A DNA stretch of 64,000 bases from Impatiens glandulifera (taxonomy: Eukaryota > Streptophyta > Magnoliopsida > Ericales > Balsaminaceae). Location of the stretch: NCBI RefSeq assembly GCF_907164915.1, contig NC_061862.1:4778358-4842357 (forward strand), read 5' to 3'. A program made the position numbers and the translations under genes. Of the stretch, positions 10,169 through 62,702 are shown in pieces (position 1 is the first letter of the stretch; every line of letters begins with the position of its first letter). The notes beneath the pieces were generated by a model. That model saw nothing but the letters and a program-made list of their open reading frames with translations. It had not been told where the DNA came from and searched no databases.

Positions 10169-11476
10169 TGTTAGATAAAATTAGACCGGCTCACAGAACT
10201 TAACATAAATAAACCTTTCATACAGGAACAAGGAACCGAACCGACTAAGAAGATTAACCGGTCAAGACAGTAAACTGACCAGGAACATTCGGAACATGAC
10301 CGCACAAAGAAAGGATCGGCCAAAGCCAAAAACCGGAAACACCAGACAGTCGATCAAAGGAATAACCAGAAGATGTCCGGTTAAACCAATTACACCGGAA
10401 GGCATCCGGTGAAAAGTCAAATGACCGACCAGCACAAGAAGCTACTTTGGGTATCTATTGAGAATGATACCAAAGGAACAGACTGAACATGTCCATATTA
10501 TTACAAGTCTGAGGAAAGTCTGCAGGCTGCAGAAGACAGTCCTACAGGATCTTTCCACTCTCAGGATAAACCAGAGGCAATCTTCCAAGTACAGACAACT
10601 GTCTAACCAATAGTTACGACAATGAGTAAAAGACAAACCTAGCAGGTTTGTCTTACACACCGGAAGAACAGACTGCAAAGTCTGCAAAGTTGACCGCCAG
10701 GTCTAAACAGTTGACCGCCAGGTCTGAACAGATGACCGCCAGGTCTGAAAAGATAACCGCAGGGTCTGAATCACTGAACATCTGCTCAGCCAATCAGATT
10801 CAAGGAAGTGAAATATGACCGTTAGTATATTTCACCTATAAAAGGAGCAGATGAAGAAGAGTAAATGTGGGACAACATACGGGACACAAGTGACACAGCG
10901 AGCTATTAACTTACAAGTAATAAGAGTGTGTTCTCTCTCTAGAAAGCATAAGTGCTAAAGTTGAAGAGTGTATTTTACAATTTCGGTGTAAATTGTAAGG
11001 GTGTTATCGAGCAGGAAATAAGTCTCGATCGGATTGTATTTGTATTCCTTAGTGAATATCCTTCTCGCGGTTTCTAGAGGAAGGGGTGACGTAGGAGCTT
11101 TATCTCCGAACATCCATAAAAACCGGTCTTGCTATTTCTTTTCTGTCAGCTCTACTTTCTAACCGACCTATACTAACTTATCTGCACCGTTCTAACCTAC
11201 TTGACTCTATCCAAACCGAACCATCAGGTTACAAAAACCAACCCATTAATTTTCAAATCTATATCATCCAAAACCGGTTCCGCCTATCACACAAGTGTGC
11301 TGCTTCAACTTGAAACAAACCTCTTCTGTGCTTGAACCTAGTTTAAGGGTTTGTGATAGTTTGTGTAGTATTGAAACCCCGGTGTTAATCTCTAACAGGA
11401 TTAATCACCACCCTTTGAGTGAAACCCGCTAAACTGGTCCAACCCCGGTCCTCCAGCGACCACCTAGATCCTAACA
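10169..11476 (+). repeat. A2 5' LTR (1308 bp)
   Basis: Ends are TGTTAG and CTAACA. U3 holds four about 21-base repeats of (T/A)TGACCGCCAGGTCTGAACA at 10690-10772. The TATA box TATAAAAGG is at 10837-10845. The conserved leader block GGGGTGACGTAGGAG and following, with a GGAG/CTCC mini-stem, is at 11083-11121. Confidence 0.95.
10690..10845 (+). promoter_or_regulatory. A2 LTR core promoter with upstream tandem repeats
   Basis: Four tandem copies of a roughly 21-base unit with core GACCGCCAGGTCTGAA end about 65 bases before TATAAAAGG at 10837-10845. The array is kept in the 3' LTR (about 23947-24030). A1 has fewer units and D has diverged ones. Position and repetition resemble U3 enhancer repeats; the bound factor is unknown. 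Confidence 0.6.
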
Positions 11477-11490
11477 ATTGGTATCAGAGC
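11477..11490 (+). other. A2 primer binding site (tRNA-iMet)
   Basis: ATTGGTATCAGAGC lies directly after LTR end CTAACA. Confidence 0.92.
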
Positions 11491-11515
11491 GGTTAGTTTC
11501 AATACTCAAGCAAGC

Positions 11516-13335
11516 ATGTCGTTCGATAGACCTCCAATGCTAGAAGGTAATGATTTTTTCAACTGGAAGGCACGCATGCACCTACACTTAATCACCTTGG
11601 ATGATGAGATGGAGTCCATTCTGGTCGAAGGACCGATTATAATTGATAAGGACAGAAAGGAATGGACAGCTGAAGATAAGAGAAGAAATAACCTAGACAA
11701 CCATGCTAGAAACCGGATCTCTAACAGTGTGGATAGAAACACATACTACGAGATCAGAGACTGCAAAACCGCAAAGGAAACATGGGATACGGTTATTCAG
11801 ATCTTTGAGGGAAATGAAAGAACCAAGGAAAACAAGGTAATGGTAGCTACTTAGAAGTTTGAAAGCATTAAAATGAAACCGGGAGAAATAATGAGAGAAT
11901 ATAGTGACCGGTTCACTGGTGTGTTAGATGAGCTAGCAACTCTTGGCAAGAGGTATGACAACAAGGAGGTCATCATGAAAGCTCTAAGATCTCTTCCAAG
12001 TGCATGGGACATAAAGACAATGGTGATGATGGAATCAAACTGCCTAGGTAAGATGAAGCTACACGATATATTCGAAGATCTTAAGGCGTATGAGTTCGAA
12101 ATGAGATCTAGGACTGAAGAAGAAGTCTCTGCCTCAACCTCAAACAGAGCACTGATCACATCCACAGAACCGGCTGCACCTGCACTTGCACCAGCACCTG
12201 CACCGATCAGAACCGCCGAACAGTTCACAGAGGATGCCATGGAATGCTTGCACAGAAGTTTGGGAGGTTCATGAAGAGAAGTCAACCAACAAACTACAAC
12301 TATGGTGATAAATCCAATGTAAGGTGTTAGAACTACAACTGTTTGGGACATTTCAAGTGGGAATGCAGAAAACCGAGGAGGGATGACCGGAAACCGGACT
12401 ACCAAAATAACCGAAATAACTATCAAGAAACCGGTGAAGGAAGTGAGGTTCAGAAAGCACTGATAGCCGATGATGAAGGAAGCTTATGGGCTCACAGTGA
12501 CAGTGATGATGAACTCACATGCCTCATGGCAAATGAGGAACAAGTATTTGACTCTCCTTGTGAAGAATTTACTAAAGATGAGTTATACAGTGCATTAAAT
12601 GATATGGTAGAAGAGTATAAGAACCTACTAGCCATGTTACCTAAGCAACTCAACTTTAGAACCGACCCTATAGTACCCATTCCGACAGAACCAGAAGTAC
12701 CCGTTATAACCGAACCAGAGGTCATAGAACCTGATGAAATCCCTAGCATAGAAACCGAGTTAGAACCTGAACCACCACTTAAGACCGAACAGTCTAGTGA
12801 ACCAGCTAGAGAACTGACCGAAGAAGAAAATGCTCGACTCCAGTATAAGATTGCCGCATATAAGAGATCTAGTGACATGGTAAAGAAAATGTGTAGTCAT
12901 TACAGACATCCTTTTTGCATGTTCGGCTTAGGATATACAAAGGATAGATCTAAAGACCAAAAGCCCGTAGAGAAAGTAAAGTTTACAAGGAGTAACCTTC
13001 CTCTTATAAGATTCATTAGAAGCTCCTTGACCGCTGAAGAAGAATTGACCGCATATTATACGGAAGAAAAACTAAACTACAATTATGTTGGTCCAACCGA
13101 CTCTGAGAAGTGGCTAGACCCTGAGAAAAGAAAAGACGACCTGCTCAAAAATAGGAGAACCAATCCTCAACCGCATAGGACAAACCACAAAACACCCTCA
13201 TTTAAGACTTTCGTAGAAAAACCGAGATACCCAAAACCGAGTGCCAAAAGAACGGCTAAAACCTTAGCAAAGAAGGCTGTCCGGTTTGTCAAGGTTTGGA
13301 TACCCAAGGGACTAATCGCATGTGGACCCAAGTGA
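11516..13335 (+). pseudogene. gag: A2 gag
   Basis: ATG at 11516 (MSFDRPPMLEGNDF). It matches A1 and D Gag along its length and ends GLIACGPK at 13335. Breaks: TAG at about 11851 where A1 has CAG, a frameshift near 12245, and a TAG inside the zinc knuckle (after the first Cys, about 12328). The long tail after the knuckle (12343-13335) is open. The product would be the capsid/nucleocapsid precursor; this copy cannot make it. Confidence 0.88.
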
Positions 13336-13360
13336 ATGTGGGTACCAAGTAGTTGTAAAT

Positions 13361-16197
13361 ATGTACATTTTACAGGATTTAAAGAAGTGGCTAGGAAACT
13401 CTGAATGGTACTTGGATAGCCGTTGCTCCAGGCATATGACCGGGAACAACAACCTGCTAACCGACATCAGAATAGAAACCGGTGCTCTAATTACCTTCGG
13501 TGACAACTCAAAAGGTAGAACTATGGGCAAGGGTAAGATTGTCCATGGTAACTTGACAATTGATAATGTGCTCTTAGTAGAAAACCTACGTTTTAACTTG
13601 CTAAGCATTAGTCAAATGTGTGATGCTGGATACACGGTAGAATTTCTTAAACATGCATGCTTAGTTAAGAACTCTCAAGGTACCATACTACTAACCGGAA
13701 ATAGGCTAGGAAATATTTACAAGATAGACTGGAAAACTAAGGTAGAATATCTTGTATGCATGATAGCTAAGACCGATCAAACCTGGTTATGGCATAAGAG
13801 ACTAAACCATCTAAACATGAAAACATTAAACTACATTCGCGGTAAAAAGCTAGTTGAAGGTATTTCTGACATAGTATTTAACAAGGATAAGGTTTGTTCA
13901 GCATGTCAAATGGGTAAACAAACTAAGTCAACCTTTAAGAGTAAAGGAAACATTCAATCTAGCCGATGCTTAGATCTCTTACACATGGATTTATTTGGAC
14001 CGATTCAGGTCATTAGCCTAGGAGGTATGTTGTACACCATGGTAGTTATTGATGATTACTCTAGATTTACATGAGTAATATTCTTACCATCCAAACGTGA
14101 AACCGCAGAAAATTTGATCACATTACTTAAACGTTTACAAAATGAAAAATCAACTCGCATTAATAGCATTAGAAGTGATAGAGGTACCGAATTTACCAAT
14201 AGTACTTTAACCGCATTTCTTGATGAATCCGGTATTAGACACGAGTTGTCTAGTGCTAGGACTCCTCAACAAAATGGCCTGGCCGAGAGAAGAAACCGGA
14301 CTCTCAAGGAAGCCGCACGGTCCATGATAGCCGATTCGGGCATTGCTCAGAAATTCTGGGCTGAGACTATCAACACTGCATGCTATACACAAAACCGGTC
14401 TCTAATTAACAAATTTCACAACAAAACACCGTATGAGGTTTACTTTAATAGAGTTTCCAACCTTAAATACCTTAAGATTTTCGGTTGTAAATGCTACATT
14501 CATATAAATGGAAAAACCTATTTATCTACTTTTGATGCGAAAATCGATACTGGGATCATGCTAGGTTACTCAGCAGTGAGTAAAGCATATAGAGTGTATA
14601 ACAATAGAACTTTAACCATGGAGGAATCACTTCACGTGGTTTTCGTTGAATCAGTTGAAAGTAATACTACATCATGCTTTGATCTGCACAACAGATTGGA
14701 AAATACCAATATCCATTCTGATGGTGAGGATGAAGCTCCGGTTTTCAGGCGGTTTGTCCATGACTAAATGGGTAATAATGAAGACGATGGGTATTTAGAA
14801 ATAAACTCAATGAAGACGGTTTGGTCACAAGGAACAAAGCCAGATTAATGGCACAAGGTTACAAACAGGAAGAAGGCATTGATTTTGAAGAATCATTTGC
14901 CCCTGTAGCTAGGATTGAAGCTATTAGGATTTTTCTAGCCTTTGCTGCTTTCAAAAACTTTAAAGTTTTTCAAATGGATGTCAAAAGTGCATTTTTGAAT
15001 GGTGACCTACGTGAAGAGGTGTATGTTGAACAACCACCCGGTTTCAAAAGTACTGAATTCCCAAACCATGTATACCGGTTAAATAAAGCTTTATACGGTC
15101 TAAAGCAAGCACCTAGAGCCTGGTATGACACACTAACCGCATTTTTGTTAGAACATGACTTCACCATCGGTTCGGTGGATAAAACACTTTTCAAGTTTGA
15201 GAAAAAGGGGCATATCTTACTTGTTCAAATCTATGTAGATGATATCATTTTCGGTTCAACCGACCCTAAGTTATGTGACAAATTTTCAACCCTGATGACT
15301 AACAAGTTTGAAATGAGTATAATGGGAGAATTAAGTTTCTTCCTAGGTCTTCAGGTTAAACAACTCGAAGAAGGAACGTTCATTAGCCAACCTAAGTACA
15401 CCAAGGAGCTTCTAAAGAAGTTTGGGATGGACACATGCTCCTCAGCGGCTACTCCAATGAGCTCATCGGTTAAACTGGACAAGGATGATGAGGGTCAATC
15501 GGTAGACCAGATAGCTTACCGGGGCATCATCGGTTCTCTCCTATACCTGACAGCAAGTAGACCGGATATTCTATTTGCAGTCGGTGTGTGTGGAAGGTTT
15601 CAAGCTAATCCAAAAAAATCCCACTACACAGCCGCAAAGAGAATATTAAAATACCTAAAGGGAACTCCTGACGTCGGTCTGTGGTATCCAAAGGATTCAT
15701 CCTTTAATCTAACGAGCTATTCAGATGCAGACTACGCAGGTTGCAAGATTGATAGAAAAAGCACCAGCGGAACATGTCAATTCCTAGGTGACCGGCTTGT
15801 TTCATGGCATAGCAAGAAACAAACATCGGTGGCCACATCCACCGCAGAAGCTGAATACCTGGCGGCCGGAAGCTGTTGCTCACAACTCCTTTGGATCCAA
15901 CAACAACTGATGGACTTCGGTGTCATAGCCGAAGAGTCTCCGATCTTTTATGATAACACAAGTGCCATAGCAATCACCTACAATCCGGTTCTACACTCTA
16001 GAACCAAGCACATTGACATAAAGCACCATTTCATTCGGGAACATGTCATGCTGAAGCATATCCGGCTGGAATACGTACCGACAGATCAACAAGTAGCCGA
16101 TATCTTCACCAAGCCTCTACAGGAAGCTAAGTTCTCTCAATTTAGACTTACTCTCGGTTTAACCGATATTAGTCAGATACTTCCTAAGGATGCTTAA
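13361..16197 (+). pseudogene. pol: A2 pol (protease, integrase, RT, RNase H) with deletion
   Basis: The frame starts at ATG 13361 (MYILQDLKKW), after the gag stop. The protease triad reads DSR instead of DSG. The HHCC domain is at about 13790-13915. Integrase has HMDLFG (about 13984), a TGA for TGG near 14072, SDRGTEF (about 14177) and LAERRNR. Near 14770-14810 about 130 residues are missing relative to D, including the start of RT (the [11 protein letters not shown] region). RT then runs with [15 protein letters not shown] (about 15231) and RNase H ([22 protein letters not shown]), ending ILPKDA at 16197. Sirevirus lineage is indicated by the RT/RNase H wording. Confidence 0.88.
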
Positions 16198-16707
16198 AGG
16201 AATTCGGTTCGGACAGAGAAAACCGGTAGTTCCTCCTAAACTGTTGGATTTCAAATCTTCAAGGTATCTATGGAAGAACTGACTGGTCTATCAGACAGAG
16301 TAAACCGACCGGTTATTTAGTGTTTGCACCAAATAACCGCATCGGGATGAACAACTGATGACTGACCGGTTCGGAAATAGGTTATCTTAGATTATTTGAA
16401 CTTCAAACAAAAGTGGAATATTTATCTATGTTTAAGCTTATCTGTTCTTAAACATTTCCTTTTCAAAGTAAACTGGTCACACCTAAAAAGACGTGAAGAT
16501 TCGATATCTTTCATGGTCCAGGTCTATGACCAACACCCTTAGGCTGTAGACATGCTTATTTTATGCAAAGCCTTTTCCCCTCTGGATAATAGACATTATC
16601 ACCTGTGATACCTGGATAATAGGGTTCTCTCTCCACTAGTATATAAGATGAACAAACCTTAATCAAAACAATCACAAGTCATAACTCATTCCATCACTAA
16701 GACAAAA
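16198..16707 (+). promoter_or_regulatory. A2 pol-aORF1 spacer: hairpin, conserved block, TATA box
   Basis: It holds an inverted repeat (GGTTATTT with AAATAACC, 16311-16338) and a roughly 70-base block (16482-16552) conserved in B and D with cores CCTAAAAAGACGTGAAGAT and TATGACCAACACC. TATATAAG at 16640-16647 lies about 68 bases before the aORF1 ATG. This looks like an internal promoter for aORF1. Confidence 0.6.
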
Positions 16708-17469
16708 ATGTCTCAGTTTCCAAATATCTTCCAAGTAGACTTCAAATCTGCGAAGAGCACTGAACACTACGATGTGTTCAAAATGATCAAATCTCTTGAA
16801 GACACAGGTCTTTAATACTTCCTGGATGACAAGCATGTCATCTATCTAGAATTTGTTCTAGAGTTCCTGTACAACGCAAGGGTCTTCAAAGGCACACCGC
16901 ACTTTGACACCCATATCCAGTCAAAGGTGGGCGGTATAGTATTCGACTTTATGGAGAATGACTTTGGGAGGTGCTTTGGCTTGCCAAAGCAAGGTTTAAC
17001 AGATCTTAACGTTCCGGCCGACTTAAAGACCGAGATCTCTCTAACCTTTGCCCGGTCTAACCAACCGGTCGATGACCATGGCACAAAGTCATTATTGAGG
17101 GCTGAATATCAGCTCCTCAATGACGTGATAGGTCGAAGCATCTTAGGAAGAGATGTGACGAATACCTACTGTACCGCTTCTTTTAACATGATGGCTGCCA
17201 TAACCACCGGGACACCGGTTAACTGGTCAAGAGTACTGTTCGACGTTCTAATCTGGATGATTAGCGTTCGAATAGTCGGCCTCGTTCCCCAGTTGAGCTG
17301 TCTGCTTCTTGAGCTTGGCGTACCGACCTGTCCAGGCGAAGGTCTGAATCAAGCTTAAGTGCTAACTAAGGAAGTAACCGACTCCTTCTATGATCGGTTC
17401 GAGAAGGATTGGAAGAGGAGGAACCGTCGCAACAACCCCAACGGTGCGGTCACATCCAACGGTTATTAA
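16708..17469 (+). pseudogene. A2 aORF1 (accessory gene 1)
   Basis: ATG at 16708 (MSQFPNIFQVDF), 253 codons to TAA at 17467. Two in-frame TAA codons (16813 and 17356) replace the Gln codons of D and B. Conserved features are the early VDF, RCFGLPKQG, LRAEYQLLNDVIGRSIL and NWSRVLFDVL, then a charged C-terminus. There is no signal peptide or clear membrane span. Resemblance in layout to the plant transposon protein domains found in other plant elements is possible but unproven. Role unknown. Confidence 0.8.
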
Positions 17470-17937
17470 GTCACTCCTTTCTACACCCGGTCATTTTGCT
17501 GCACGCACCGGGTGTATCTTTGTTCAACATCTTTATGATCATTCGGTTTTATCTATGTTATTTGCGGTTTTAGTCTAAGTCATCCTCGGTGTGTATCGGT
17601 TACTCTTCAATGGGTTATTAATGAAAAGTAATATTTAATTAATGCAGTAACCCCCAACCACCTGAGTAATCAATACCCAACTAACTTGGTTACTTTTCAA
17701 CCAAATCCCACCTCGAGCTCCGCGATTAATTAAAAGTAACTCTTTCCCAATGCGTTTTGGAAACATAAATATTCTCTTCCTTAATGAGACAACACTGATA
17801 TTCAATGCTAATATTTTTCCTCCAAAACCGATCCTATATAAAGGGCTATCCTCTAATCAACTCAACACATCCTAAACACAAAAACTCTCTTGAAATCTCT
17901 TGAGCTCTCCCTCTCTCTTTTCGCAAAAGCTCTAACC
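17470..17937 (+). promoter_or_regulatory. A2 aORF2 upstream region with TATA box
   Basis: No gene lies here. TTTTTCCTCCAAAA (17814-17827) is followed by TATATAAAG (17835-17843), about 95 bases before the aORF2 ATG. The same pair occurs before aORF2 in B and D. Confidence 0.65.
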
Positions 17938-18638
17938 ATGCCAAGCCGAACCTTAGGAAATTTCTTGAGCATCGACTTCGACTCATGTATGGAACATTGG
18001 GACGGAGAAACAAAAGAGGTCATGTTTGAAGCTCTCACTAACATCGGCCTTCAAACATTTCTCGAAGAATTCGGTCCCATTCTGATTGAGGATGTTAAGA
18101 CCTTCTTTCGAAGCGCTTGCATCAGGGCAACTATATCGTCTCTACGGTGAGAGACCACACTTTCTAGCTTGATGAAGCCGAATTTGCCTCCATGTTCAAC
18201 TTGCCCACAGAAGGGTTTTCTAACTTCCCAACCCTGGTGGGAAGTGCCGCAGCCGACCACGCACTGTTCTTCTCTGGAACCGATGTTCCAGTGGAAAAAG
18301 ATGGGTTAAAAACCCGCCTTGCTCATCACATTCAACTCCTTCTAGAGATTGTGACTCGCTCCATTATCTGTCAGTCCCCAAACCAGCGCTACTCTAAGAA
18401 CACATACAACATAATGACCCATATTGTTAGCAACACGGCCATCAATTGGTCAACGGTCATTTTTCAGAACCTGAAGAACATGGTGCTAACCAAGAAAGGT
18501 CTCGGTTATGCTCCTCACATCAGCCGGCTTATTCTCAAATACCGCCCTGAATTTGGACCGGGCACACCGGTATCCTCTTCAAACATTCTTGACATGGATG
18601 GGATGGAAGATAGGTTCTCTAAGGTCGTTATTACATAA
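17938..18638 (+). pseudogene. A2 aORF2 (accessory gene 2)
   Basis: ATG at 17938 (MPSRTLGNFLSIDFDS), ending VVIT at 18638, about 233 codons. A frameshift near 18120-18150 plus a stop in HTF*LDEAEF break it. Conserved with D: MFNLPTEGFSNFP, LLLEIVTRSII, INWSTVIFQNL, FGPGTP. The same landmarks sit at the same spacing in aORF1 and in the N-terminus of aORF3, so the three genes appear paralogous. Function unknown. Confidence 0.8.
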
Positions 18639-27942: not shown

Positions 27943-27969
27943 GCTTTCTTGAGTATTGAAACTAACTGC

Positions 27970-51763: not shown

Positions 51764-54592
51764 CTATTCTGAGTCCGTGAATTCGTAGGCGCTCTTCTTT
51801 CTCTTTGGTGGTGGTGGCGGTTGCGGCTGGGAAGATTGTGGCCTTTTTGATCGAGACCGCAACTGTTCTACGACTTCTTCCTCGATTAGGTCTTCTTGCT
51901 GTGGGGGGCCTGTTTCAGCTGGTTTAGAGATCGTGTTGAGCGTCTCGAGGATTCGAACTTTCTTACTAGCCGGCCTCTTTCTTTTCTTTGATGCCGAAGC
52001 TGAGGCTGCCGGTGCTGAAACGGAAGTTGCTGGCGCTGAAGCGGAAGCGGCTGCCTTCTTCTTTTTCTCATTTTCCTTTGCAAAGCCCGTCAGCCTTTGT
52101 TGCTCCGTTTCTAATCGTTCGGCATCCGCCGCAACCTGTCTTGCCAATTTCTCAGCATATCCTGGATACATGATCTCAGCCCTTCGTATTCTCTCGGCCT
52201 CTATTTCGTCTTCGGTCAGCTGAGTCGCCCGTGGCGCCTCTTTGTCTCTGCTAACCTCGGCGTCCAGCCTTTCCTGGACTCTCTTAGCAACCAGAGCATC
52301 GGCCTCTATAGCAGCGGCATCCGCGGCTTCCTTAGCTTTCAGGATCTCGGCCATTTGTGCAGTGAGTGCCTTTACCTCGGCCTCGAGATCTTCGTTCTTC
52401 TTTTCCAGTGCCGAGACTCGTTCAATTGTTGGGTCGACCCGTTCGAAATCCTTCTTTAATTCCGAAGTGAGACCCTCCAGAGCTAAAATATGCTGAGCAC
52501 AGTTTGCTCGCTCACCGGCCTCTTCCCATAGTCCGGTGGTAAGTTGCTCCAGGCGCGTTTGATGATGATCCACAACTTTCTTTGTCACATCGACGAACTG
52601 CATGGCCGAATCGAAAGCGGTCTCACATCTATCCTTGAGCGGTTGAAGCTTGGAGACGTTGTGTTCAGTTATTCGGTCATCAATCTTCTCTGATATTGAT
52701 GCTTCAAATTGCCGGAGTCGGTCCTCAATCCGCTTTGAAACAACCACTTCAAATTTTTGAAATAGGTCATCAATCCATTCCTTAGGAGGAACGAAGACGG
52801 TGGCTGCCGGTGGAGGAGTGGGAGCGGACTGCTCGGTCTGATTAGGGTCGGCTCTCTCAACATCGGAGTCCAGTATTTCAACAACCTCAGTAGGTGCTTC
52901 TGATGTGACCGCATCCTCTAAGTTCAGTGCCGCATTTTCCAGGATTGGTACCTCGACATCCTCTAAAGTTTGTGCCTCAACGGTTCCCGGAGTCGGTACC
53001 TCGATTGTTCCCGGAGTTGATATATCAACAGTTCTTGGAGTCGGTACCTCATCATCTTCTGGCATCGGAGTCTCGATGTCCCTCGGTGTCGCGGTGTCTT
53101 CTCTCGAAGTGGATGCCCAGTCCATTTGAAAATCTTCGACGACCGGAGGGGTATACACCGGAACTTGTTTCTGAACGCAGATTGCTTCTAACCGCGCTAT
53201 CTCTTGGTGTAACTCCAATTTGCCTTTTTCGAGCTTTTCTACTACTAGCGGTGCTACGGTAGACACCGATCCCTCTTCGGCATATTCTTCCTTAATCTTT
53301 CTGATACGCTTTCTTATCTGTCGAAGCTGACTTCTCGGTATCAGCAGGCCAGTTCGGCATTGTACCTCATGAATGGTATTGGATTTTGTGAGGCTTAAGA
53401 TATGGTCCTCCACTTCCTCCAATCTGTTGATGCATTTTACCGAATCGAAATCCTGTAGGATATCTTTATATTTAGAGTTGAACCGGTAATCGTGCCATTC
53501 CAAGTACAAACTGATAACGTCCACGTTTCTTTTGATAATGCCCTGAAAGATATTCTGGGCTAGTCTTTCGGCTTCGGCCTCATCGGCTTCTTCCCTGCTG
53601 AGGCCTTCTTGATCGGCTCCCTCATGATTCCCTTCCCCATCCTCGGTGGTCTGAGGGTTGAAACTTTGTTCGGCATCGGTCGGAGTCCGAGCCGAGAGAT
53701 CGTCCTCCTGATCCGTTCTATACTCGGTTCCTTCTGTTTCGGCTTCCTCATCAGCCCACTCCTCATCCTCTGTTTGTTGAGGAGGTTCTTCGAAAACTAC
53801 CTTTTCCTTCCTCTTTCCTCCGGTGTTTTCTTTCGCCGGGGTCTTTTTCTTTGCGGCTTTCTTCTTTTGGCCATCTGTGGAGCTTGAAGCCGACGGCTTT
53901 CGAGGGAGAAATTGCTTTGATCGAATGATGCTGCTTTTTCGTATTCCAACACCGGGACCGACTTTGATCTTCAGATGTAAGAAGATTTTGCCGAGTTGAA
54001 CTGCATATCCCCAAGATCTGTCCGAGCCCGGTCTCACCATTGCCATAAGATTGCTGAACACCGCCCTTGCCCAGTTAGTCTCTGTTCCATCCATCAGACG
54101 AAAAATCATCTTTATTTTGTCCCTGGTTAGATTACTGAAGTTTCCTCCCCTTGCCAGGATCGCCCTGGCAAAGACGTCACATGCCGGAATGAGCTCCGGT
54201 CTCAGCATTTGTTTCTTGCCGGATGTAGTAAGCGGTTCGTTGGTTGCCGATAGAAGTTGGCAGGCTGTTCTATATGTATCCTCGTCCATTTCTGCCATAG
54301 CATCCATGCCGGTAGTTGGGAGACGCAAACTCTCGGCCACTACTGCCTCGGTAATCTCTATTTGAGAACCGCACACCGTTGCGAGGATCCTGTCGTAGGA
54401 GATGGTTGCGGTTTTGAAGAACTCTTCTACCGCTTCCTTGTATATTATGTGAGGACCGTTAAGTAGATGTTCCAAACCGGTCTCAATCAGCCGGTTAGCT
54501 ACTTCTTTTGCCTCGGTCGTTCCATATTGCCGAATCTCCTCAAAATCTACTTGAGAATATAATTTGAACAATGCCGCATCACGACGAACCAT
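51764..54592 (-). CDS. D aORF3: 942-aa accessory protein with coiled coil and basic clusters
   Basis: ATG at 54592 (MVRRDAALFKLYSQVDFEEI). Residues 1-235 form the shared domain: EEFFKTA (56-62), LRLPTTG (89-95), NWARAVF (173-179), GPGVG (212-216). Then a Lys-rich stretch (243-265), an acidic linker (265-345), a helical region (about 350-480, LYLEWHDYRFNSKYKD) and Pro-Thr repeats such as EVPTPGTVE (about 500-570). A long coiled coil (about 640-840), Ala/Ser-rich KKRKRPASKK and a C-terminal KRKKSAYEFTDSE complete it. There is no membrane span. It has its own TATA box and E2F-like site. Nuclear location is inferred; molecular function is unknown. It is not similar to pol or gag. Confidence 0.85.
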   Translation of the reverse strand: MVRRDAALFKLYSQVDFEEIRQYGTTEAKEVANRLIETGLEHLLNGPHIIYKEAVEEFFKTATISYDRILATVCGSQIEITEAVVAESLRLPTTGMDAMAEMDEDTYRTACQLLSATNEPLTTSGKKQMLRPELIPACDVFARAILARGGNFSNLTRDKIKMIFRLMDGTETNWARAVFSNLMAMVRPGSDRSWGYAVQLGKIFLHLKIKVGPGVGIRKSSIIRSKQFLPRKPSASSSTDGQKKKAAKKKTPAKENTGGKRKEKVVFEEPPQQTEDEEWADEEAETEGTEYRTDQEDDLSARTPTDAEQSFNPQTTEDGEGNHEGADQEGLSREEADEAEAERLAQNIFQGIIKRNVDVISLYLEWHDYRFNSKYKDILQDFDSVKCINRLEEVEDHILSLTKSNTIHEVQCRTGLLIPRSQLRQIRKRIRKIKEEYAEEGSVSTVAPLVVEKLEKGKLELHQEIARLEAICVQKQVPVYTPPVVEDFQMDWASTSREDTATPRDIETPMPEDDEVPTPRTVDISTPGTIEVPTPGTVEAQTLEDVEVPILENAALNLEDAVTSEAPTEVVEILDSDVERADPNQTEQSAPTPPPAATVFVPPKEWIDDLFQKFEVVVSKRIEDRLRQFEASISEKIDDRITEHNVSKLQPLKDRCETAFDSAMQFVDVTKKVVDHHQTRLEQLTTGLWEEAGERANCAQHILALEGLTSELKKDFERVDPTIERVSALEKKNEDLEAEVKALTAQMAEILKAKEAADAAAIEADALVAKRVQERLDAEVSRDKEAPRATQLTEDEIEAERIRRAEIMYPGYAEKLARQVAADAERLETEQQRLTGFAKENEKKKKAAASASAPATSVSAPAASASASKKRKRPASKKVRILETLNTISKPAETGPPQQEDLIEEEVVEQLRSRSKRPQSSQPQPPPPPKRKKSAYEFTDSE

Positions 54593-55091
54593 GTTTTGAG
54601 GATTCTGAAAATGAAAGAAATCGGCTTCGAAGGATTTTAGAAGTGTAGAGAGAGAAAGTGAATTTGTGAGAATGAAGAAGAATATGACGAAGGCCCCCTT
54701 TTATAGGCGCGGTTTGGAAGCCAAACCGTCCCATCACGAATGGGCGGGAAATTTCCCTCCAAAATGAAATGTGTCAGTCTGAGCGGTTTCGTACGAAACG
54801 GTGGGCGGTTTTGTTAGGCGGGAGATTTCCCTCCAAAATTTTGGCTATGTCATCGGTGACGCAATCTTTTCCTTGATACCGAATGACGGATCGGTTTCTA
54901 ATAGTGTTTCGGATATTTTGATTGCTCGGTGTTTAGCAGTTTTAAACATTTTATGAAACCGGATACGAACGATATGATGCCGGTTATGTTAGATAAATGC
55001 AAGAAGTAAAGAGAGGCGATCAAGACTGAAACAGTATTTTATTATAATTGAAACCGATAGGATCGAAAGGAAGACATTTAAGTAAATATGT
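54593..55091 (-). promoter_or_regulatory. D aORF3 upstream region: TATA box and E2F-like sites
   Basis: On the minus strand: TATAAAAGG (plus 54697-54705), about 105 bases before the ATG; TTTCCCGCC (plus 54743-54751); and GGAGGGAAATCTCCCGCC (54817-54834). The remainder, up to the end of aORF2, is non-coding. Confidence 0.65.
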
Positions 55092-55799
55092 TTAACCAGT
55101 AAACACGAATTTGGAGTACTTTTCCACCACGGCATCTTTATCGAGAATGTTTGAGGGGGATGCCGGTGTGCCCGGTCCAAAATCTGGCCGGTACTTGAGG
55201 ATGAACTTGCTGATGTGTGGTGCGAAGCCGAGACCTTTCTTGGTCCGCACCATTTTCCTCAAAGTTTGAAAAAGGACCGCTGCCCAATTGATGGGCGTGT
55301 GGTTGTAGATGTGGGTCATCATATTATAGGTATTCTTTGAGAACCGCTGATTTACAGATTGGCACAGAATGGACCGAGTGACAATCTCAAGAAGTAGTTG
55401 AGTGCTTTTACCGAGGCGGGTTTTTAACCCATAGGTTTCCACCGTCTCGAAGGTTCCTAAGCAGCGGTACACATAGTAGTACTCATCAGTGCCCACCAAG
55501 GCCGGAAAGTCAGAGAACCCTTCTTTGGGCAGATTGAAAAGGGCAGCAAATTCGGCTTCATCGAGCCGGAAGGTGTGGTTCCTTACAGTTGTGACAATGC
55601 GATCTCCCCAGTTGACCGCATTTCTGAAGAATTCCTTTACATCCTCAGTTAGTATGGGGCCGGATTCGGCAAGGAAGGCTTGAAGACCGGTAACAATGAG
55701 ACTTTCAAACATGTGTTTCTTTAGGTGATCGTAGTCCCATTCGGCCAAGCATGAGCCGAAGTCAACACTTAGAAAATTTCCCAAAGTTCGGCTTGGCAT
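55092..55799 (-). CDS. D aORF2: 235-aa accessory protein
   Basis: ATG at 55799 (MPSRTLGNFLSVDFGS). Landmarks: KEFFRNA (55-61), FNLPKEGFSDFP (88-99), LLLEIVTRSIL (135-145), NWAAVLF (171-177), GFAPHI (191-196), GPGTP (208-212). These sit at the same spacing as in aORF1 and the aORF3 N-terminus. It is a soluble-looking protein with no signal peptide. The frame is intact here, while A2 and B copies are broken. Its family may relate to the plant transposon protein domain; I cannot confirm this without a profile search. Confidence 0.83.
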   Translation of the reverse strand: MPSRTLGNFLSVDFGSCLAEWDYDHLKKHMFESLIVTGLQAFLAESGPILTEDVKEFFRNAVNWGDRIVTTVRNHTFRLDEAEFAALFNLPKEGFSDFPALVGTDEYYYVYRCLGTFETVETYGLKTRLGKSTQLLLEIVTRSILCQSVNQRFSKNTYNMMTHIYNHTPINWAAVLFQTLRKMVRTKKGLGFAPHISKFILKYRPDFGPGTPASPSNILDKDAVVEKYSKFVFTG

Positions 55800-56287
55800 G
55801 ATGATGATGTAGAGAGAGAGAGAGATTCAAGAGGGTGCAAGTGATCGTGAATGTGAGAAAGTGAAGAGAGAATGGCTCCTTATATAGAATTGTTTTTGGA
55901 GGGAAAATCAGAGCATTGATTGTTATTTTTGTTTTATTAAGGAAGAGAATCTTTTCATTTCCAAAGTGCATTGGGAAGAGGCGGTTTGCAGATCTCGAGG
56001 TAAGTATTCGTTGGAAACCAACCAGATTAGTTAGAGATTAAATGTGCGGGTGGTTGGGAGTTATCTCATTAAATAAGATTATCTCATTAAGTGCATTTAT
56101 CACATAAACAACATTGATTAGATGGAGACCGAAAGTGATAGAGATAAAGCCGAAATATGTCATACAGAAATGAAAAACAGAAATAAAACCGAAGTGGACA
56201 TGGATGAAGCCGATATGGTCAGATCTGAGTTGAATAATAATACATCCGGTACATGAAGCAAAATGACCGGATGCAAGAAGGAGTGAT
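55800..56287 (-). promoter_or_regulatory. D aORF2 upstream region with TATA box
   Basis: TATATAAGG on the minus strand (plus 55878-55886), about 80 bases before the ATG, is preceded by TTTTCCCTCCAAAA (plus 55894-55907). A GA-rich leader (AGAGAGAGAGA) lies at about 55810-55825. The rest is non-coding. Confidence 0.65.
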
Positions 56288-57001
56288 CTAATGGTTCCTC
56301 CTCTCTTCAACCCGATCGTAGAACGAGTCGATGATTTCCTTGGTGAACACTTGGCTGCGGTCCAAACCTTCGCCTGGACAGGTTGGGACCCCGAGCTCCT
56401 CAAACAGCCGGCTGATCTGGGGAATGAACGCCACCGACCTGGTGCCGATTATCCAGATCAGGACATCGAACAGCACCCTGGACCAGTTGACCGGCGTCCT
56501 CGTTATGATGGCTGCCATCATATTGAACGTTACCGTGCAATATGTGTGGGTTACATCTTTCCCGAGGATGCTCCTCCCTATTATGTCATTTAGGAGCTGG
56601 TATTCAGCCCTCAAGGGATATTTGGAGCCATGATCATCGACTGGCTCATCTGATCGAGAGAGAGAGAGAGAGACCTCAGCCTTGGTGTCGGCTGGAGGAT
56701 TAAGGTCCGTGAGCCCTTGTTTGGGCAGATTGAAGCACCGAGCAAAGTCTTGCTCGGTGAAGTCAAAGATAGCACCCCTAACTTTTGATTGGATGTGGGT
56801 GTTGAAGTAAGGTGTCCCCCGGTACACCCTGGCATTGTTGAAAAACTCAATGACGGACTGAGGATAGATGAGTTGATTATCATCTAGGAAGTACTGGAGA
56901 CCGGTATCCTCCAGTTGTTTGATCATTCGGTATAGATCATAGTGTTCTGTACTGGAGCATGATTCGAAGTTCACTTGTAGGATGTTTGTGAAGGTAGACA
57001 T
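56288..57001 (-). CDS. D aORF1: 237-aa accessory protein
   Basis: ATG at 57001 (MSTFTNILQVNFESCSSTEH). Landmarks: IEFFNNARVY (51-60), ARCFNLPKQGLTDLN (87-101), LRAEYQLLNDIIGRSIL (130-146), NWSRVLFDVLIW (172-183), CPGEGL (208-213), and a charged end. The hydrophobic stretch at 176-196 is too interrupted to call a membrane span. This gene comes first after pol, the place of the env-like ORF of some Sireviruses, but it shows no envelope hallmark. Function unknown. Confidence 0.83.
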   Translation of the reverse strand: MSTFTNILQVNFESCSSTEHYDLYRMIKQLEDTGLQYFLDDNQLIYPQSVIEFFNNARVYRGTPYFNTHIQSKVRGAIFDFTEQDFARCFNLPKQGLTDLNPPADTKAEVSLSLSRSDEPVDDHGSKYPLRAEYQLLNDIIGRSILGKDVTHTYCTVTFNMMAAIITRTPVNWSRVLFDVLIWIIGTRSVAFIPQISRLFEELGVPTCPGEGLDRSQVFTKEIIDSFYDRVEERRNH

Positions 57002-57556
57002 TGTCAGGATGCCTTAGAGAGAGATGATGTTCTTGTGAGTTTCTTTGCTTTAGGGAGGGAAAGAGTGTATTGAGTTGTGAGTGATTAAGTGAAATAATGC
57101 TTCCTTTAAATACTGTTTTTGGGGCTAACCTATTGTCCAGACATTAAATGGAATGACCTGTATTAACTGCAGGATAAAAGGTTATTCACCAAAATGGGTA
57201 TGTGTGCAGTCTAGGTGTCGGTCATAGGCCTGATCCGTGAAAGATATCAAAAGATCTTCACGTCTTTTTAGGCACGACCAGGTTTATTCTAAAAGGTAAT
57301 GATGCAGAACAGAGACCTTTAACCTTTGATAATTATTCCTCTTTTGTTTGAATGTCAAATATTCTGGGATAATCTTCTTCCGAACCGGTCAGCTTTCAGT
57401 TGTTCATCCCGATGCGGTTACGTGGTGTTTCCACCAGATAGCCGGTCGGTTTACTCTATCTGATAAACTGGGCGGTTCTTCCACAGATACCCCGAAGATT
57501 CAAAGTTCAACATCTTAGGAAGAGTTACCGGTTTGTCTGTCTGAACCGACTTTCCT
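57002..57556 (-). promoter_or_regulatory. D pol-aORF1 spacer: hairpin, conserved block, TATA-like box
   Basis: On the minus strand, TATTTAAAG (plus 57105-57113) lies about 105 bases before the ATG. The conserved block with AAAAAGACGTGAAGAT and AGGCCTATGACC is at 57200-57272. A hairpin with GGTG/CACC stem and GAAA loop is at 57416-57443, at the same place as the A2 hairpin. Confidence 0.6.
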
Positions 57557-60500
57557 TTAAGTATCCTTTGGAAGGATTTGACTAATATCGGTTAATCCGA
57601 GAGTAAGTCTAAATTGAGAGAACTTAGCTTCCTGTAGAGGCTTTGTGAAGATATCGGCTACTTGTTGATCGGTGGGTACGTATTCCAGCCGGATATGCTT
57701 CAGTGTGACATGCTCTCGAATGAAATGATGTCTTATGTCGATGTGCTTGGTTCTGGAATGGAGAACCGGGTTGTATGTAATCGCAATGGCACTTGTGTTG
57801 TCACAGAAAATTGGGGACTCTTCGGCTGTAATACCGAAGTCCTTCAGCTGCTGTTGGATCCAGAGAAGTTGAGAACAGCAACTTCCGGCCGCCAAGTATT
57901 CAGCTTCTGCGGTTGATGTAGCCACGGATGTCTGCTTCTTGCTATGCCACGATACCAGTCGGTCACCAAGGAACTGACATGTTCCGCTGGTGCTCTTTCT
58001 GTCAATCTTGCAGCCTGCATAGTCTGCGTCTGAATAGCTCGTTAGATTCAATGATGAGTCCTTTGGGTACCACAGACCGACATCAGGTGTGCCCTTTAGA
58101 TACTTCAGGATCCTCTTTGCGGCTGTGTAATGGGATTGCTTTGGATTTGCTTGAAATCTCCCACATACACCAACTGCAAACAGGATGTCCGGTCTGCTTG
58201 CTGTCAGATATAGCAGGGAACCGATCATGCCCCGGTATGCAATCTGATCTACTGATTGCCCTTCATCATCTCTGTCCAATTTAATGGATGAACTCATTGG
58301 AGTGGCCGCTGAGGAGCAGGTGTCCATACCGAATTTCTTTAGAAGCTCCTTGGTATATTTCGGTTGACTAATGAATGTTCCTTCCTTGAGTTGCTTAACC
58401 TGAAGACCTAGGAAGAAACTTAATTCTCCCATCATACTCATTTCAAATTTGTCAGTCATCATTTTTGAAAATTTGTCACAAAGCTTGGGATCGGTGGAAC
58501 CAAAAATAATATCATCTACATAGATTTGAACAAGTAGGATATGTTCCTTCTTTTCAAATTTGAACAAGGTCTTATCCACTGAACCGATGGTAAAATCATG
58601 CTCTAATAGGAATGCGGTCAGTGTATCATACCAGGCTCTTGGTGCTTGCTTTAGACCGTATAAAGCTTTGTTTAGCCGGTATACATGGTTTGGAAGTGCA
58701 GCATTTTTGAAGCCGGGTGGCTGTTCAACATACACTTCCTCTCGTATATCACCGTTCAAAAATGCACTTTTAACATCCATTTGAAAAACTTTGAAGTTTT
58801 TGAAAGCAGCAAATGCAAGAAAGATCCTAATGGCTTCAATCCTGGCTACAGGAGCAAAAGACTCTTCAAAGTCAATGCCTTCTTCCTGTTTGTAGCCTTG
58901 AGCCACTAATCTGGCTTTGTTCCTCGTGACCAGACCGTCCTCATTGAGTTTGTTTCTGAATACCCATCTTGTTCCTATGACCGATTTATCTTTCGGTCTG
59001 GGAACTAAGTACCAGACTTTACTACTCTCGAACTGGTTTAGCTCTTCCTGCATTCCCAAGATCCAATCCGGATCTGACAATGCTTCATCTATTCTTTTCG
59101 GTTCAATCTGGGATATAAAAGCAGAGTTAAAATATCCTTCCAGAAGTTGACTCCTAGTTCGAACAGGTTCTGAAGGGTCACCTATAATTTGCTCAGGAGG
59201 ATGTTTACTGTTTCTTCTGAGATTCAGTTCAAGGGTGTCTACCAAGTTACCGTTTAATTGATCAAGGCTAGACATGTCGGTAGGCTGACCAAGATTGTCA
59301 GACCGACCGGCTTCCTCGGGTTGGACCGAAGTGTCAGCTTCCTGCTGTGAAACAGCTTGATCCGGCTGGGTATCAATATTACCCATTAGGTCATGGACAA
59401 ATCCCCTGAAGACCGGGGTCTCATCTTCGCTATCAGAATGAATATCGTTGTTTTCCAGTCTGTTATGAAGATCAAAGCATGAAGCAGTGTTGCTTTCAAC
59501 CGATTCATCGAAAACAACGTGAATTGTTTCCTCCATGGTTGCAGTTCTATTGTTATATACTCTATATGCTTTGCTTACTGAAGAGTATCCCAGCATAATG
59601 CCGGTATCGGTCTTTGCATCAAAAGCAGTAAGTTGGGTTTTACCATTATTATGAATATAACATTTACAGCCGAAAATCCTGAGGTATTTGAGTTTAGGAA
59701 CTCTGTTAAAATAAACCTCATATGGTGTTTTGTTGTGAAATCTGTTAATCAAAGACCGATTTTGTGTGTGGCATGCAGTGTTGATAGCTTCAGCCCAATA
59801 TTTCTGAGCAATGCCGGAGTCGGCTATCATGGACCGTGCGGCTTCCTTGAGAGTCCGGTTTCTTCTCTCGGCCAGGCCATTTTGTTGAGGAGTCCTGGCA
59901 CTAGACAACTCGTGTCTAATGCCGGATTCATCAAGATATGCAGTTAACGTGCTATTAGTAAATTCGGTACCTCTATCACTTCTTACGCAATTAATGCGAG
60001 TTGATTTTTCATTTTGCAAACGCTTAAGAAGATTAATCAGGTTTGATACAGTTTCACGTTTAGATGGTAAGAATATTACCCATGTATATCTAGAGTAATC
60101 ATCAATAACTACCATGGTGTAAAGCATACCGCCTAGACTAATGACCTGAATTGGTCCAAATAAATCCATGTGAAGAAGATCTAGGCATCGGCTAGATTGG
60201 AGATTTCCTTTGCTCTTAAATGATGACCTAGTTTGTTTACCCATCTGGCATGCTGAACAAACCTTATCCTGGTTAAATACTATATCTGGGATGCCTTCAA
60301 CTAATTTCTTACCACGAATGTAGTTTAAGGTTTTCATGTTTAGATGGTTTAATCTTTTGTGCCATAGCCAGGTTTGATCAGTTTTAGCTATCATGCATAT
60401 AGGATGTTCTACTCTAGTTTTCCAGTCTACCTTGTAGATGTTACCTATCCTATTTCCGGTTAGTAGTACTATTCCTTGAGAGTTCTTAACTAAGCATGCA

Positions 60501-60784
60501 TGTTTAAGGAATTCTACTGTGTATCCGGCATCACACATTTGGCTAATGCTAAGTAGATTAAAACGTAGGTTTTCAACTAGAAGTACATTATCAATAGTTA
60601 GGTTACCATGGACAATCTTACCCTTGCCCACGGTTTTACCTTTAGAGTTGTCACCGAAAGTGATTGGAGCACCGGTTACTGATCTAATGTCGGTTAGCAG
60701 ATTGCTATTTCCGGTCATGTGCCTGGAGCAACCACTGTCCAAGAACCATTCAGAGTTTCCTAGCCGTTTCTTTGGATCCTGCAA
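57557..60784 (-). CDS. pol: D pol: protease, integrase, reverse transcriptase, RNase H
   Basis: 1075 codons are open. Protease DSG is at 16-18. HHCC is at H142, H147, C176, C179. Integrase has D207, D270 and E306 (D,D-35-E). RT has D670 ([11 protein letters not shown]) and YVDD 755-758. RNase H has D919, E960, D995, and the end is ILPKDT. All key residues are present. The lineage is Sirevirus/SIRE by RT and RNase H wording. No ATG precedes the protease: the first one is codon 23, and the place of the A1/A2 start reads ATG TAA. The listed 5' end is therefore the limit of the open frame (TTG), not a proven start. It might be reached by splicing to TTTTTGCAG just upstream. Confidence 0.92.
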
Positions 60785-60818
60785 AAATTACATATTTACA
60801 ACTATTTGGTACCCACAT

Positions 60819-62663
60819 TTACTTGGGTCCACATGCGATTAGTCCCTTAGGTACCCAAACCTTGATAAGTCGAACAGTCTTCTTTGCTAAAGTTTCAACT
60901 GTTCTCACACTTGGTCTGGTGTATTTCGGTTTCCCTACAGATGACCTAAATGACGATGGTCTTTGGTTTGATGATCTATAGTTTGATCTACGTGGTTCAG
61001 GGAAATCTTTCTTATATTTGAGGATTTCTGCTTTTCTTTTCTCAAGGTCGAGCCATGAATCGGTTGGACCAACATAATCGTACTTTGTCTTTTCTTCCCT
61101 ATAATACGCGGTCTCCTCTTCTTCAGCTGTACAGGTGCTCTTAAGAAATTTTATAAAGGGAAGGTTTCCTTTTGTAAGCTTTGCTTTCCATATGGATTTT
61201 CGGTCTTTAGATCTGGTCTCTGTGTACCCTAGGCCATTCTTACAACGTGGATGCCTGTATTCTTTATTCAGGTTCTTTACTATATCGCTAGATCTCCTAT
61301 AGGCGGCCATCGTATACTGAAATCTGGCATTCTCTTTTTCGGTTAGTTCTCTAGTTGACTCACTAGGTTGTTCAATCTTAAGTTCTAATTCGGTTTCTAG
61401 GGTATGAGTATCATCAGGTTGTATGGCTTCCGGTTCGGCTATGATAGGTACCTCTGGTTCTTCTGGGATAGGTACGATGGGATCGGTTTTGATGTTGAGG
61501 TGCTTAGGTAACATGGTCAATAGGTTCTTATATTCTTCTACCATGTCATTCAATGCTTCATATAACTCATCTTTAGTAAATTCATCACAAGGAGAGTCAA
61601 ATACCTGTTCCTCATTTGCCATGAGACATGTGAGGTCATCGTCACTGTCACTGTGAGCCCATAGACTTCCTCCATCGTCGGCTATCAATGCTTTCGGTAC
61701 TTCACTTCCTTCACCGGTTTGTTGATAGTTATTTCGGTTATTTTGGTAGTCTGGTTTCTGTGTATCTCTCCTTGGTTTCCTGCATTCCCACTTAAAGTGT
61801 CCCATACAGTTACAGTTATAGCATCTTACATTGGATTTGTCACCATAGTAGTTGTTTGTCGGTTGGCTCCTTTTCATGAACCTCCCAAACTTTTGTGCAA
61901 GCATTGCCATGGCGTCCTCAGTAAACTGTTCGGCGGTTCTAATCGGTGCAGGTGCAGGAATCGGTACCGGTGCAGATGTAGATATAGGCGCAGGAACAGG
62001 TGCGGCCGGTTCCGTAGATGTGAACAGAGCTCTGGTTGACGTTGAGGCCGAGACTTCCTCTTCAGTTCTGGAATTCATCTCGAACTCGTACGCCTTAAGA
62101 TCTTCGAATACATCGTATAATTTCATCTTACGTAGGCTCTTTGATTCTCTCATGACCATCGTCTTTATATCCCAGGCACTTGGAAGAGACCTCAAAACCT
62201 TCATGATGACCTCTTTGTTGTCGTACCTTTTGCCCAGATTTGTTAACTCATCTAATACACCAGTGAACCGGTCACTGTATTCCTTCATAGTTTCCCCTGG
62301 TTTCATTTTGATGCTTTCAAACCTCTGTGTGGCCACCATTATTTTGTTCTCCTTTGTTCTTTCATTTCCCTCAAAGATCTGGATGACCGTGTTCCAAGTC
62401 TCCTTCGCGGTTGTGCAATCTCTGATCTTGCAGTATGTATTTCTGTCCACGCTGTTGGAGATCCGGTTTCTTGCATGGTTGTCCAGATTGTTCCTTCTCC
62501 TATCATCAGCTGTCCATTCTTTTCTGTCTTTATCAATGACTATCGGTCCTTCGGTTAGAACGAATTCCATTTCATCATCCAAGGTGACTAGATGCAGGTG
62601 CATGCGTGCCTTCCAGTTGGCAAAGTCATCACCTTCTAGCATTGGAGGCCTATCTTGATACAT
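60819..62663 (-). CDS. gag: D gag polyprotein (614 aa)
   Basis: ATG at 62663 (MYQDRPPMLEGDDFANWKAR). A copia Gag region is at about 20-200, a Pro/Ala-rich hinge at about 218-240, and the CCHC knuckle CYNCNCMGHFKWEC at 281-294. An acidic segment (LWAHSDSDDDLTCLMANEE) and a basic tail end in GLIACGPK. The frame is intact and is closed by TAA 34 bases before the open pol frame, which lies in another frame. The product is the particle protein and RNA-binding nucleocapsid precursor. Confidence 0.93.
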   Translation of the reverse strand: MYQDRPPMLEGDDFANWKARMHLHLVTLDDEMEFVLTEGPIVIDKDRKEWTADDRRRNNLDNHARNRISNSVDRNTYCKIRDCTTAKETWNTVIQIFEGNERTKENKIMVATQRFESIKMKPGETMKEYSDRFTGVLDELTNLGKRYDNKEVIMKVLRSLPSAWDIKTMVMRESKSLRKMKLYDVFEDLKAYEFEMNSRTEEEVSASTSTRALFTSTEPAAPVPAPISTSAPVPIPAPAPIRTAEQFTEDAMAMLAQKFGRFMKRSQPTNNYYGDKSNVRCYNCNCMGHFKWECRKPRRDTQKPDYQNNRNNYQQTGEGSEVPKALIADDGGSLWAHSDSDDDLTCLMANEEQVFDSPCDEFTKDELYEALNDMVEEYKNLLTMLPKHLNIKTDPIVPIPEEPEVPIIAEPEAIQPDDTHTLETELELKIEQPSESTRELTEKENARFQYTMAAYRRSSDIVKNLNKEYRHPRCKNGLGYTETRSKDRKSIWKAKLTKGNLPFIKFLKSTCTAEEEETAYYREEKTKYDYVGPTDSWLDLEKRKAEILKYKKDFPEPRRSNYRSSNQRPSSFRSSVGKPKYTRPSVRTVETLAKKTVRLIKVWVPKGLIACGPK

Positions 62664-62690
62664 GTTTGCTTGAGTATTGAAACTAACTGC

Positions 62691-62702
62691 TCTGATACCA
62701 AT
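62691..62702 (-). other. D primer binding site (tRNA-iMet)
   Basis: ATTGGTATCAGA on the minus strand, directly next to the 5' LTR. Confidence 0.92.

Follow-up and report, generated by a model that had tools for sequence, protein, structure and literature searches.

A 64,000-nucleotide stretch of the Impatiens glandulifera genome (C1:4778358-4842357 of 654 Mb; the window in what follows) raises the question of what three accessory genes are doing between the pol gene and the 3′ long terminal repeat (LTR) of a Ty1/copia retrotransposon. This retrotransposon, element D (50101-64000, minus strand), carries aORF1 (56288-57001, 237 aa), aORF2 (55092-55799, 235 aa) and aORF3 (51764-54592, 942 aa) in series on the minus strand, with pol on one side and the 3′ LTR on the other. 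All three are complete open reading frames (ORFs), as the initial annotation had stated, and their starts are spaced 1202 and 1207 nt apart. The evidence points to one domain in triplicate, kept under selection and replaced gene by gene between copies of the element.

Pairwise alignments of the three D proteins (35%, 30% and 26% identity; E values of 5e-34, 4e-19 and 1e-19) and a domain tree ruled out three unrelated genes. In the Pfam search that the initial annotation had proposed, each single protein matched PF20167 (Transposase_32, "putative plant transposon protein") weakly, with E values of 5e-5, 8e-7 and 9e-5 and 23-30 bits, below the curated cut-off of 45 bits. With relatives from the genome added, all 18 aligned members matched (best E 6e-14), and 30 relatives that are 33-48% identical to D exceeded the cut-off. 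Because all 18 members match, the assignment of aORF1, aORF2 and the N-terminal domain of aORF3 (aORF3N, 53903-54592) to PF20167 is firm at the level of sequence profiles. At the 30 best PF20167 places in the genome, the domain at the match was aORF3-like in 29 cases and aORF1-like in one. In aORF3 the family domain is followed by a charged tail of 712 aa with an acidic, proline-rich stretch (501-600), a basic stretch (801-900) and, by eye, a basic run near the C-terminus; Pfam gave no significant match for this tail (best E 0.09). A search among 5.8 billion proteins, where plant proteins are perhaps scarce, returned 161 candidates for aORF2 and no relative at E ≤0.001.

The tree was built from 28 of 137 domains found at 202 places, the others being near-copies, short or stop-bearing. 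A single branch separated each of aORF1, aORF2 and aORF3N from the rest (100/99, 100/98 and 100/99, respectively). The aORF1 group contained D and element B of the window, the aORF2 group D and a PF20167-rich subfamily, and the aORF3 group D, element A of the window and that same subfamily. Since each group unites D with more distant relatives, the three gene lines would predate these subfamilies, provided that the root falls between the lines; the tree was midpoint-rooted for drawing only, and its root was not inferred.

The same three sense genes were matched in the same order at all three elements A, B and D, confirming an earlier reading of the window. In A (plus strand) they comprise an aORF1 with two stops (16708-17406, 70% identical to D), a broken aORF2 (17938-18635, 61-65%) and an aORF3 in three matching pieces (19318-23102, N domain 58%). 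In B (minus strand) aORF1 is open (26108-26806, 66%), whereas aORF2 (25005-25646, 49%) and aORF3 (8574-9878, with the N domain at 9201-9878, 47%) are broken. A lies inside B, and its insertion severed aORF3 from the remainder of B. The initial annotation had already given the B series in two parts; the end at 7927 assigned to it is an ORF end, and the aORF3 search gave no match beyond 8574. The aORF1 and aORF2 of A and the aORF2 and aORF3 of B are too damaged for the tree; each was identified by its best match, which is to its counterpart.

Outside the window, other copies were compared over the 3′ half of the element. The genome searches scored the best 150 candidates, so that the resulting lists of places are no measure of copy number, and places defined by pol are close kin of D by that gene. 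All of the ten stretches picked by pol, which were chosen among 150 pol places with a leaning to those without a listed aORF2, contained aORF1, aORF2 and aORF3 in order. A comparison of coordinates covered 100 of the 150 pol places, all 150 places of aORF2 class I and 49 of the 150 places of class II (the classes are described below). At 91 of these best 100 pol places, the lists include an aORF2 1712-1809 nt past pol (70 of class I and 21 of class II), and three of the remaining nine have aORF2 once the sequence is read. The other six are unsettled, one of them having an aORF2 match 3.3 kb on.

Selection was assessed from the pooled ratio of nonsynonymous to synonymous differences (pN/pS) in pairs of copies at a synonymous divergence (dS) of 0.02-0.5. 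In 11 pol-picked copies including D (10 for aORF2), pN/pS was 0.10 for aORF1 (16 pairs), 0.19 for aORF2 (22 pairs) and 0.21 for codons 1-300 of aORF3 (29 pairs), compared with 0.008 for the pol end (49 pairs), which is lowered because these copies were selected by their pol protein. For 30 copies selected by aORF2, the values were 0.12 for aORF1, 0.17 for aORF3N and 0.07 for aORF2, the last biased low by the picking. Picking by protein similarity in general biases toward low nonsynonymous divergence (dN) in the protein used, the pairs in the pools are not independent, and the broken aORF2 of copy L074 was excluded. These ratios show purifying selection on aORF1, aORF2 and the aORF3 N domain, in agreement with the previous proposal that the set was functional during amplification. 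Of the proposed comparison with gag and pol, the part with pol was made and gave no sign of neutrality. Between A and D, dN amounted to 0.19 in aORF1, 0.21 in the C part of aORF2 and 0.32 in aORF3N, compared with 0.025 in the 3′ part of pol, where dS was 0.83. As judged from these comparisons, the accessory proteins diverge fast yet stay constrained.

Presence beside pol and purifying selection together support the view that the accessory genes belong to the element and do not stand there by chance, as first annotated. Host-gene capture by retrotransposons is known (PMC7264820), and the genes might accordingly be functionless host sequence that hitch-hikes passively. We consider this very improbable, as pN/pS was 0.07-0.21 at dS 0.02-0.5 and the three gene lines are probably older than the subfamilies. 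Members lacking the genes had been named as the sign of such passengers; in the part of that search that was run, the genes or aORF2 were present in 10 of 10 stretches and at no fewer than 94 of the 100 places defined by pol. Hitch-hiking is thus refuted by the substitution ratios unless the copies read are unrepresentative.

Each accessory gene of D is preceded by a TATA box on the minus strand: TATTTAAA at 57105-57112, 111 nt before the ATG of aORF1; TATATAAG at 55879-55886, 87 nt before that of aORF2; and TATAAAAG at 54698-54705, 113 nt before that of aORF3. Of the upstream regions compared, 44 of 44 for aORF1, 60 of 62 for aORF2 and 66 of 68 for aORF3 contain a TATA box at a distance of 60-150 nt from the start, whereas first-order shuffles of the same sets yielded 3.4, 4.5 and 1.8, respectively. 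Regions entered this count when 250 nt of upstream sequence were available and the protein match began within the first five residues; a good number of them are near-identical copies, and the weight of the result lies with the diverged rows. The box is retained at 44-48% protein identity, despite surroundings that by eye are much changed. The leader that follows is C+T-rich, with medians of 54, 60 and 67% for aORF1, aORF2 and aORF3. By this conservation, each gene is shown to possess a TATA box and a promoter-like upstream region. An internal promoter has been expected for the ENV-like gene of Sireviruses, and none was conclusively identified according to PMC2829016; in the maize element Grande, an antisense accessory gene has its own promoter (PMC7264820). 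The spacer between aORF2 and aORF3 (54593-55091) has a CpG observed/expected ratio of 1.5, compared with 0.6-1.2 elsewhere in D, and in this resembles the CpG islands that PMC2829016 describes on the 5′ side of Sirevirus ENV genes.

Comparison of single copies revealed that accessory genes have been exchanged individually. From position 1000 up to the aORF1 TATA box, copies L070 and L071 agree at 24-25 of 25 nt per window; the window that follows has 11 of 25 identical positions, those through aORF1 range at approximately 40-90%, and identity is restored about 60 nt past the end of the gene. Further downstream, identity between the two copies is mostly 91-100%, apart from a 125-nt stretch at 78%. 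Their dS values were 0.09 in pol, 2.44 in aORF1, 0.02 in aORF2 and 0.04 in aORF3N. D and copy L075 differ in the same manner in aORF2 (dS of 0.10 in pol, 0.11 in aORF1, 1.71 in aORF2 and 0.17 in aORF3N). Here the drop in identity begins approximately 30-50 nt after the aORF2 TATA box and ends about 330 nt past the gene; the spacer that precedes it is 68-92% alike. As dS reaches 1.5-2.4 in one gene flanked by values of 0.02-0.17, fast evolution alone is ruled out and exchange is required: the comparisons show that single genes gave way to alleles of deep divergence while the backbone stayed nearly identical elsewhere. Replacement of a gene together with its promoter is likewise ruled out. Because the breaks fall at the TATA box (L070/L071) or 30-50 nt after it (D/L075), the exchanged unit, as read from these two pairs, is leader plus gene, from about the TATA box on.

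When 40 copies were clustered at 85% identity, three classes of aORF1 and two classes of aORF2 were obtained. All four combinations of the main classes were present (29, 4, 3 and 2 copies); of the two other copies, one belongs to the third aORF1 class and the second has an aORF2 that is unscored. The class counts are not frequencies, as aORF2 served to select 30 of the 40, among them L009, which is D itself. Between themselves the two aORF2 classes are 53-59% alike (dS ~1.5), and their similarity to A's aORF2 pieces is 63-69%; for A's aORF1, the similarity is 78-79% to class II and 68-72% to class I. Since the aORF2 classes are no closer to each other than to A, and the A aORF1 is nearer to class II, the allele classes date back about as far as the subfamilies or further. 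The route of exchange is likely to be recombination between co-packaged RNAs. Recombination among members of one LTR retrotransposon family has been reported for ONSEN and likened there to recombinant retroviruses (PMC5668417); the exchange described here concerns single accessory genes of very old divergence on a near-constant backbone.

Such near-saturated synonymous divergence between classes (dS 1.5-2.4) would also be expected if diversity were driven at the level of nucleic acid, diverged cassettes breaking the homology to small interfering RNAs (siRNAs) and protein activity being secondary. Escape from RNA-directed DNA methylation has been proposed as the driver of VANC diversification by the authors of PMC10398659. 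We regard this explanation as rather improbable for the present genes: most of the compared 5 kb would stay an siRNA target, because L070 and L071 are mostly 91-100% alike there, and purifying selection on the proteins shows that their activity matters.

Information on function came from a structural model. A first model of aORF2, from five sequences, was poor (predicted local distance difference test score, pLDDT, of 48). In the model that was evaluated, the aORF2 fold matched DNA-bound VANC21, the fold against which it was tested; the domain is thus shown, by model only, to fold like the DNA-bound part of this sequence-specific anti-silencing protein of the VANDAL21 DNA transposon. Sequence profiles searched against the PDB gave no convincing relative of the accessory proteins, and VANC21 was not among the matches. 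DUF1985 and DUF287 were absent from the matches of the 18 members at E ≤10 and of the D proteins at E ≤1, in searches where the HMMER filters drop weak matches. The accessory proteins share with VANC that they are encoded by a transposon, diverge fast as proteins and, for aORF2, have the modelled fold; tandem repeats in noncoding DNA, here the LTR arrays described below, are a further likeness that we take as a lead only. In contrast to the Arabidopsis VANDAL elements, which are Mu-like DNA transposons, the host element is a copia element with gag, pol and LTRs. Its genes differ from VANC in being three, single-exon by their open frames and without a DUF1985 match, and they are known here from sequence and model. 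PF10536 (plant mobile domain, PMD) and PF09331 (DUF1985) both occur in the I. glandulifera genome, the former with match clusters at C1 149.5-151 Mb and on C6; a weaker PF10536 match overlaps a DUF1985 match on the same strand (C1:21486506 and C1:21486791), hinting at kinship of these families.

The modelled fold also bears on whether the proteins are env-like or of movement type, that is, membrane or transport proteins that aid particle movement between cells. Position and sense are those of the Sirevirus ENV-like gene (PMC3414828, PMC2829016), a 3′ sense ORF occurs in 74% of SIRE elements (PMC6317226), and aORF1 has one borderline hydrophobic stretch (hydropathy 1.75). This stretch is part of the conserved domain, and the corresponding regions of the paralogues are less hydrophobic; aORF2 and aORF3 have no clear membrane segment, their top 19-residue hydropathy being 1.18 and 1.12. 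The absence of envelope hallmarks noted earlier agrees with these hydropathy values, subject to the borderline stretch in aORF1. As the aORF2 model matches a DNA-binding protein and the basic run of aORF3 suggests the nucleus, an env-like function seems quite improbable.

Somewhat less unlikely are accessory proteins of the particle or of integration, which would bind DNA or RNA in nuclear import, targeting or assembly and would not act on silencing. Purifying selection and regular presence beside pol fit a function in the core cycle, and that of the Sirevirus 3′ gene is unproven (PMC3414828, PMC2829016). Such a role sits poorly with dN far above that of pol in the A/D comparison, with single swaps of old allele classes, which fit conflict better than a core part, and with own promoters, which would uncouple expression from gag-pol.

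The explanation that we tentatively favor, without putting it quite at an even chance, is a Sirevirus-type element whose three paralogues, each with its own promoter and exchanged between copies, bind DNA and act against silencing or have some other regulatory effect on the element. We regard anatomy, selection, exchange and the modelled fold match as established, and infer expression, binding and an effect on silencing as follows. The LTR promoter would make genomic RNA and gag-pol, and the three accessory genes would be transcribed from their own TATA promoters and not via the LTR transcript. Their products would move into the nucleus and bind DNA there, the most probable targets being noncoding parts of related elements; they would counter silencing, tune transcription or regulate the element in another way, with aORF3 as the effector-bearing member by virtue of its long charged tail. 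Alleles would spread by template switching when two element RNAs share one particle, and their diversity would be kept up by conflict with host silencing. The bolder form of this explanation, a copia retrotransposon with a multi-gene anti-silencing system of three self-promoted VANC-fold proteins whose alleles are interchangeable through particle-level recombination, we consider possible and more doubtful.

The Sirevirus type claimed for the family was borne out by three features. The junction of 5′ LTR and primer binding site (PBS), CA-ATTGG-TATCAGAGC, is exact in D and A; in D, ATTGG-TATCAGAGC lies at 62689-62702 (minus strand) and matches the junction given as defining Sireviruses in PMC2829016. 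Two 81-nt copies of the polypurine tract (PPT) repeat with AAAAAGGGAGAAATTGTTAG, 93% alike, precede the 3′ LTR of D, the terminal one at 51415-51495, extending into the LTR start, and the second at 51595-51675 (both minus strand); A contains repeats related to them by eye. The D 3′ LTR (50101-51427, minus strand) has a TATA box, CTATAAAAGG, at about 680 of its 1327 nt. PBS junction, double PPT and mid-LTR TATA box support the assignment of the D/A family to an abundant Sirevirus-type (Ty1/copia) element; the RVT_2 match of pol given below establishes Ty1/copia only and not the SIRE branch. In a test for palindromic CGG-CCG boxes, CCGG was enriched in the D LTR and in pol too, and CCGG boxes were dropped as a spacer signal as coding parts are also enriched. 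Where the palindromic boxes were sought, upstream of the LTR TATA box, a non-palindromic CAGGTCTGA array is located. Tandem units of this type number four in D, three and four in the two LTRs of A and two in E, a fourth, related element of the window; they lie shortly upstream of the LTR TATA box (position shown for D). Even the two LTRs of A are unlike in unit number; the units form a candidate binding array. The 7-mers of the array did not exceed the top counts of shuffled LTRs, and as a target it is a lead only.

The remainder of D consists of a partial 5′ LTR (62703-64000, aligned to 63246, the rest inferred), which runs past the window edge, gag (60819-62663, 614 aa; PF14223 with E 9e-25, one CCHC knuckle by eye) and pol (57557-60784, 1075 aa; PF07727, RVT_2, with E 1.6e-77 and PF00665 with E 3e-14), all on the minus strand. 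Pol comprises integrase and reverse transcriptase, with RNase H assigned by position, and its frame differs from that of gag. The LTR copies, with the termini TGTTAG...CTAACA, are 99.3% identical over 557 aligned nt (50088-50644 versus 62690-63246), 13 of which fall outside the LTR end. A pol copy of the D family outside the window, at C6:17283108-17283857, lies in a reported 3603-aa open frame whose length suggests fusion with neighbouring frames. Element A (10169-24733, plus strand) is flanked on both sides by the target site duplication GTTTT; its LTRs (10169-11476 and 23426-24733) measure 1308 nt and are 96.1% identical, and it has a broken gag in two pieces (11516-13332) and a broken pol with a gap in the middle (13370-16194). 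B retains an LTR piece (27969-28924) and gag pieces (27227-27942), both on the minus strand; a pol match was looked for in B and none was found. With all three accessory genes kept, B is possibly an accessory-only non-autonomous derivative. Eight aORF1 copies of the B type, among them that of the window, occur within 1.25 Mb (C1 3.87-5.11 Mb). Because they are near-identical (94-100%) and all on the minus strand, they suggest that this window is part of a local array of segmental duplications. Element E (3-3825, minus strand), which continues beyond the window, comprises an LTR (2570-3825), a gag with one stop (742-2547) and the start of pol (3-704). Between the elements, 31629-33926 and 42617-43512 contain 157-158-bp units in tandem and inverted order plus a 310-bp tandem array, and blocks of 21-42-bp CCTCC-rich units are repeated in both orientations over 13 kb (35162-36202, 44456-45477 and 46073-47722).

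Among known elements, Sirevirus/SIRE elements with a 3′ env-like ORF (eORF-3′F) resemble D in the PBS junction, multiple PPT, mid-LTR TATA box, CCHC gag (by eye) and a sense coding region between pol and 3′ LTR (PMC2829016, PMC6317226). D differs in having three paralogues and not one, a TATA box for each, the PF20167 domain and no clear membrane segment. The REXdb survey set its lower limit for eORFs at 250 codons (PMC6317226), so that aORF1 and aORF2, with 237 and 235 aa, would have escaped it. A 3′ accessory ORF of sunflower Athila, described as related to ATHILA ORF-1, has a partial match to Transposase_32 (PMC11728184) and has Pfam family, position and sense in common with the D genes; Athila is in contrast a Ty3/gypsy element with one such gene. 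PF03078 (ATHILA) gave no match in this genome, in a search whose controls were silent too. In the accessible literature, with most subscription papers and bioRxiv preprints outside its coverage, we came across no report of a copia element that carries several PF20167 genes, of 3′ genes that each have a conserved TATA box, of the exchange of single accessory genes or of a VANC-like fold in a retrotransposon. Sirevirus type, element genes and selection thus stand as initially annotated; paralogy, TATA boxes, exchange and fold go beyond that interpretation.

The 3′ genes of Sireviruses are called env-like though their function is unproven (PMC2829016, PMC3414828). The genes described here have TATA boxes in a narrow distance range, a shared domain and a structural relative of known activity, and the natural swaps among copies allow the effects of the individual genes to be told apart. 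If the VANC-like reading is true, anti-silencing proteins would not be peculiar to VANDAL elements; plant retrotransposons would use them as a weapon too. One anti-silencing fold would then serve Mu-like DNA transposons, Ty1/copia and, through PF20167, Athila, and much of the unexplained env-like or accessory-ORF content of plant retrotransposons would belong to one functional family.

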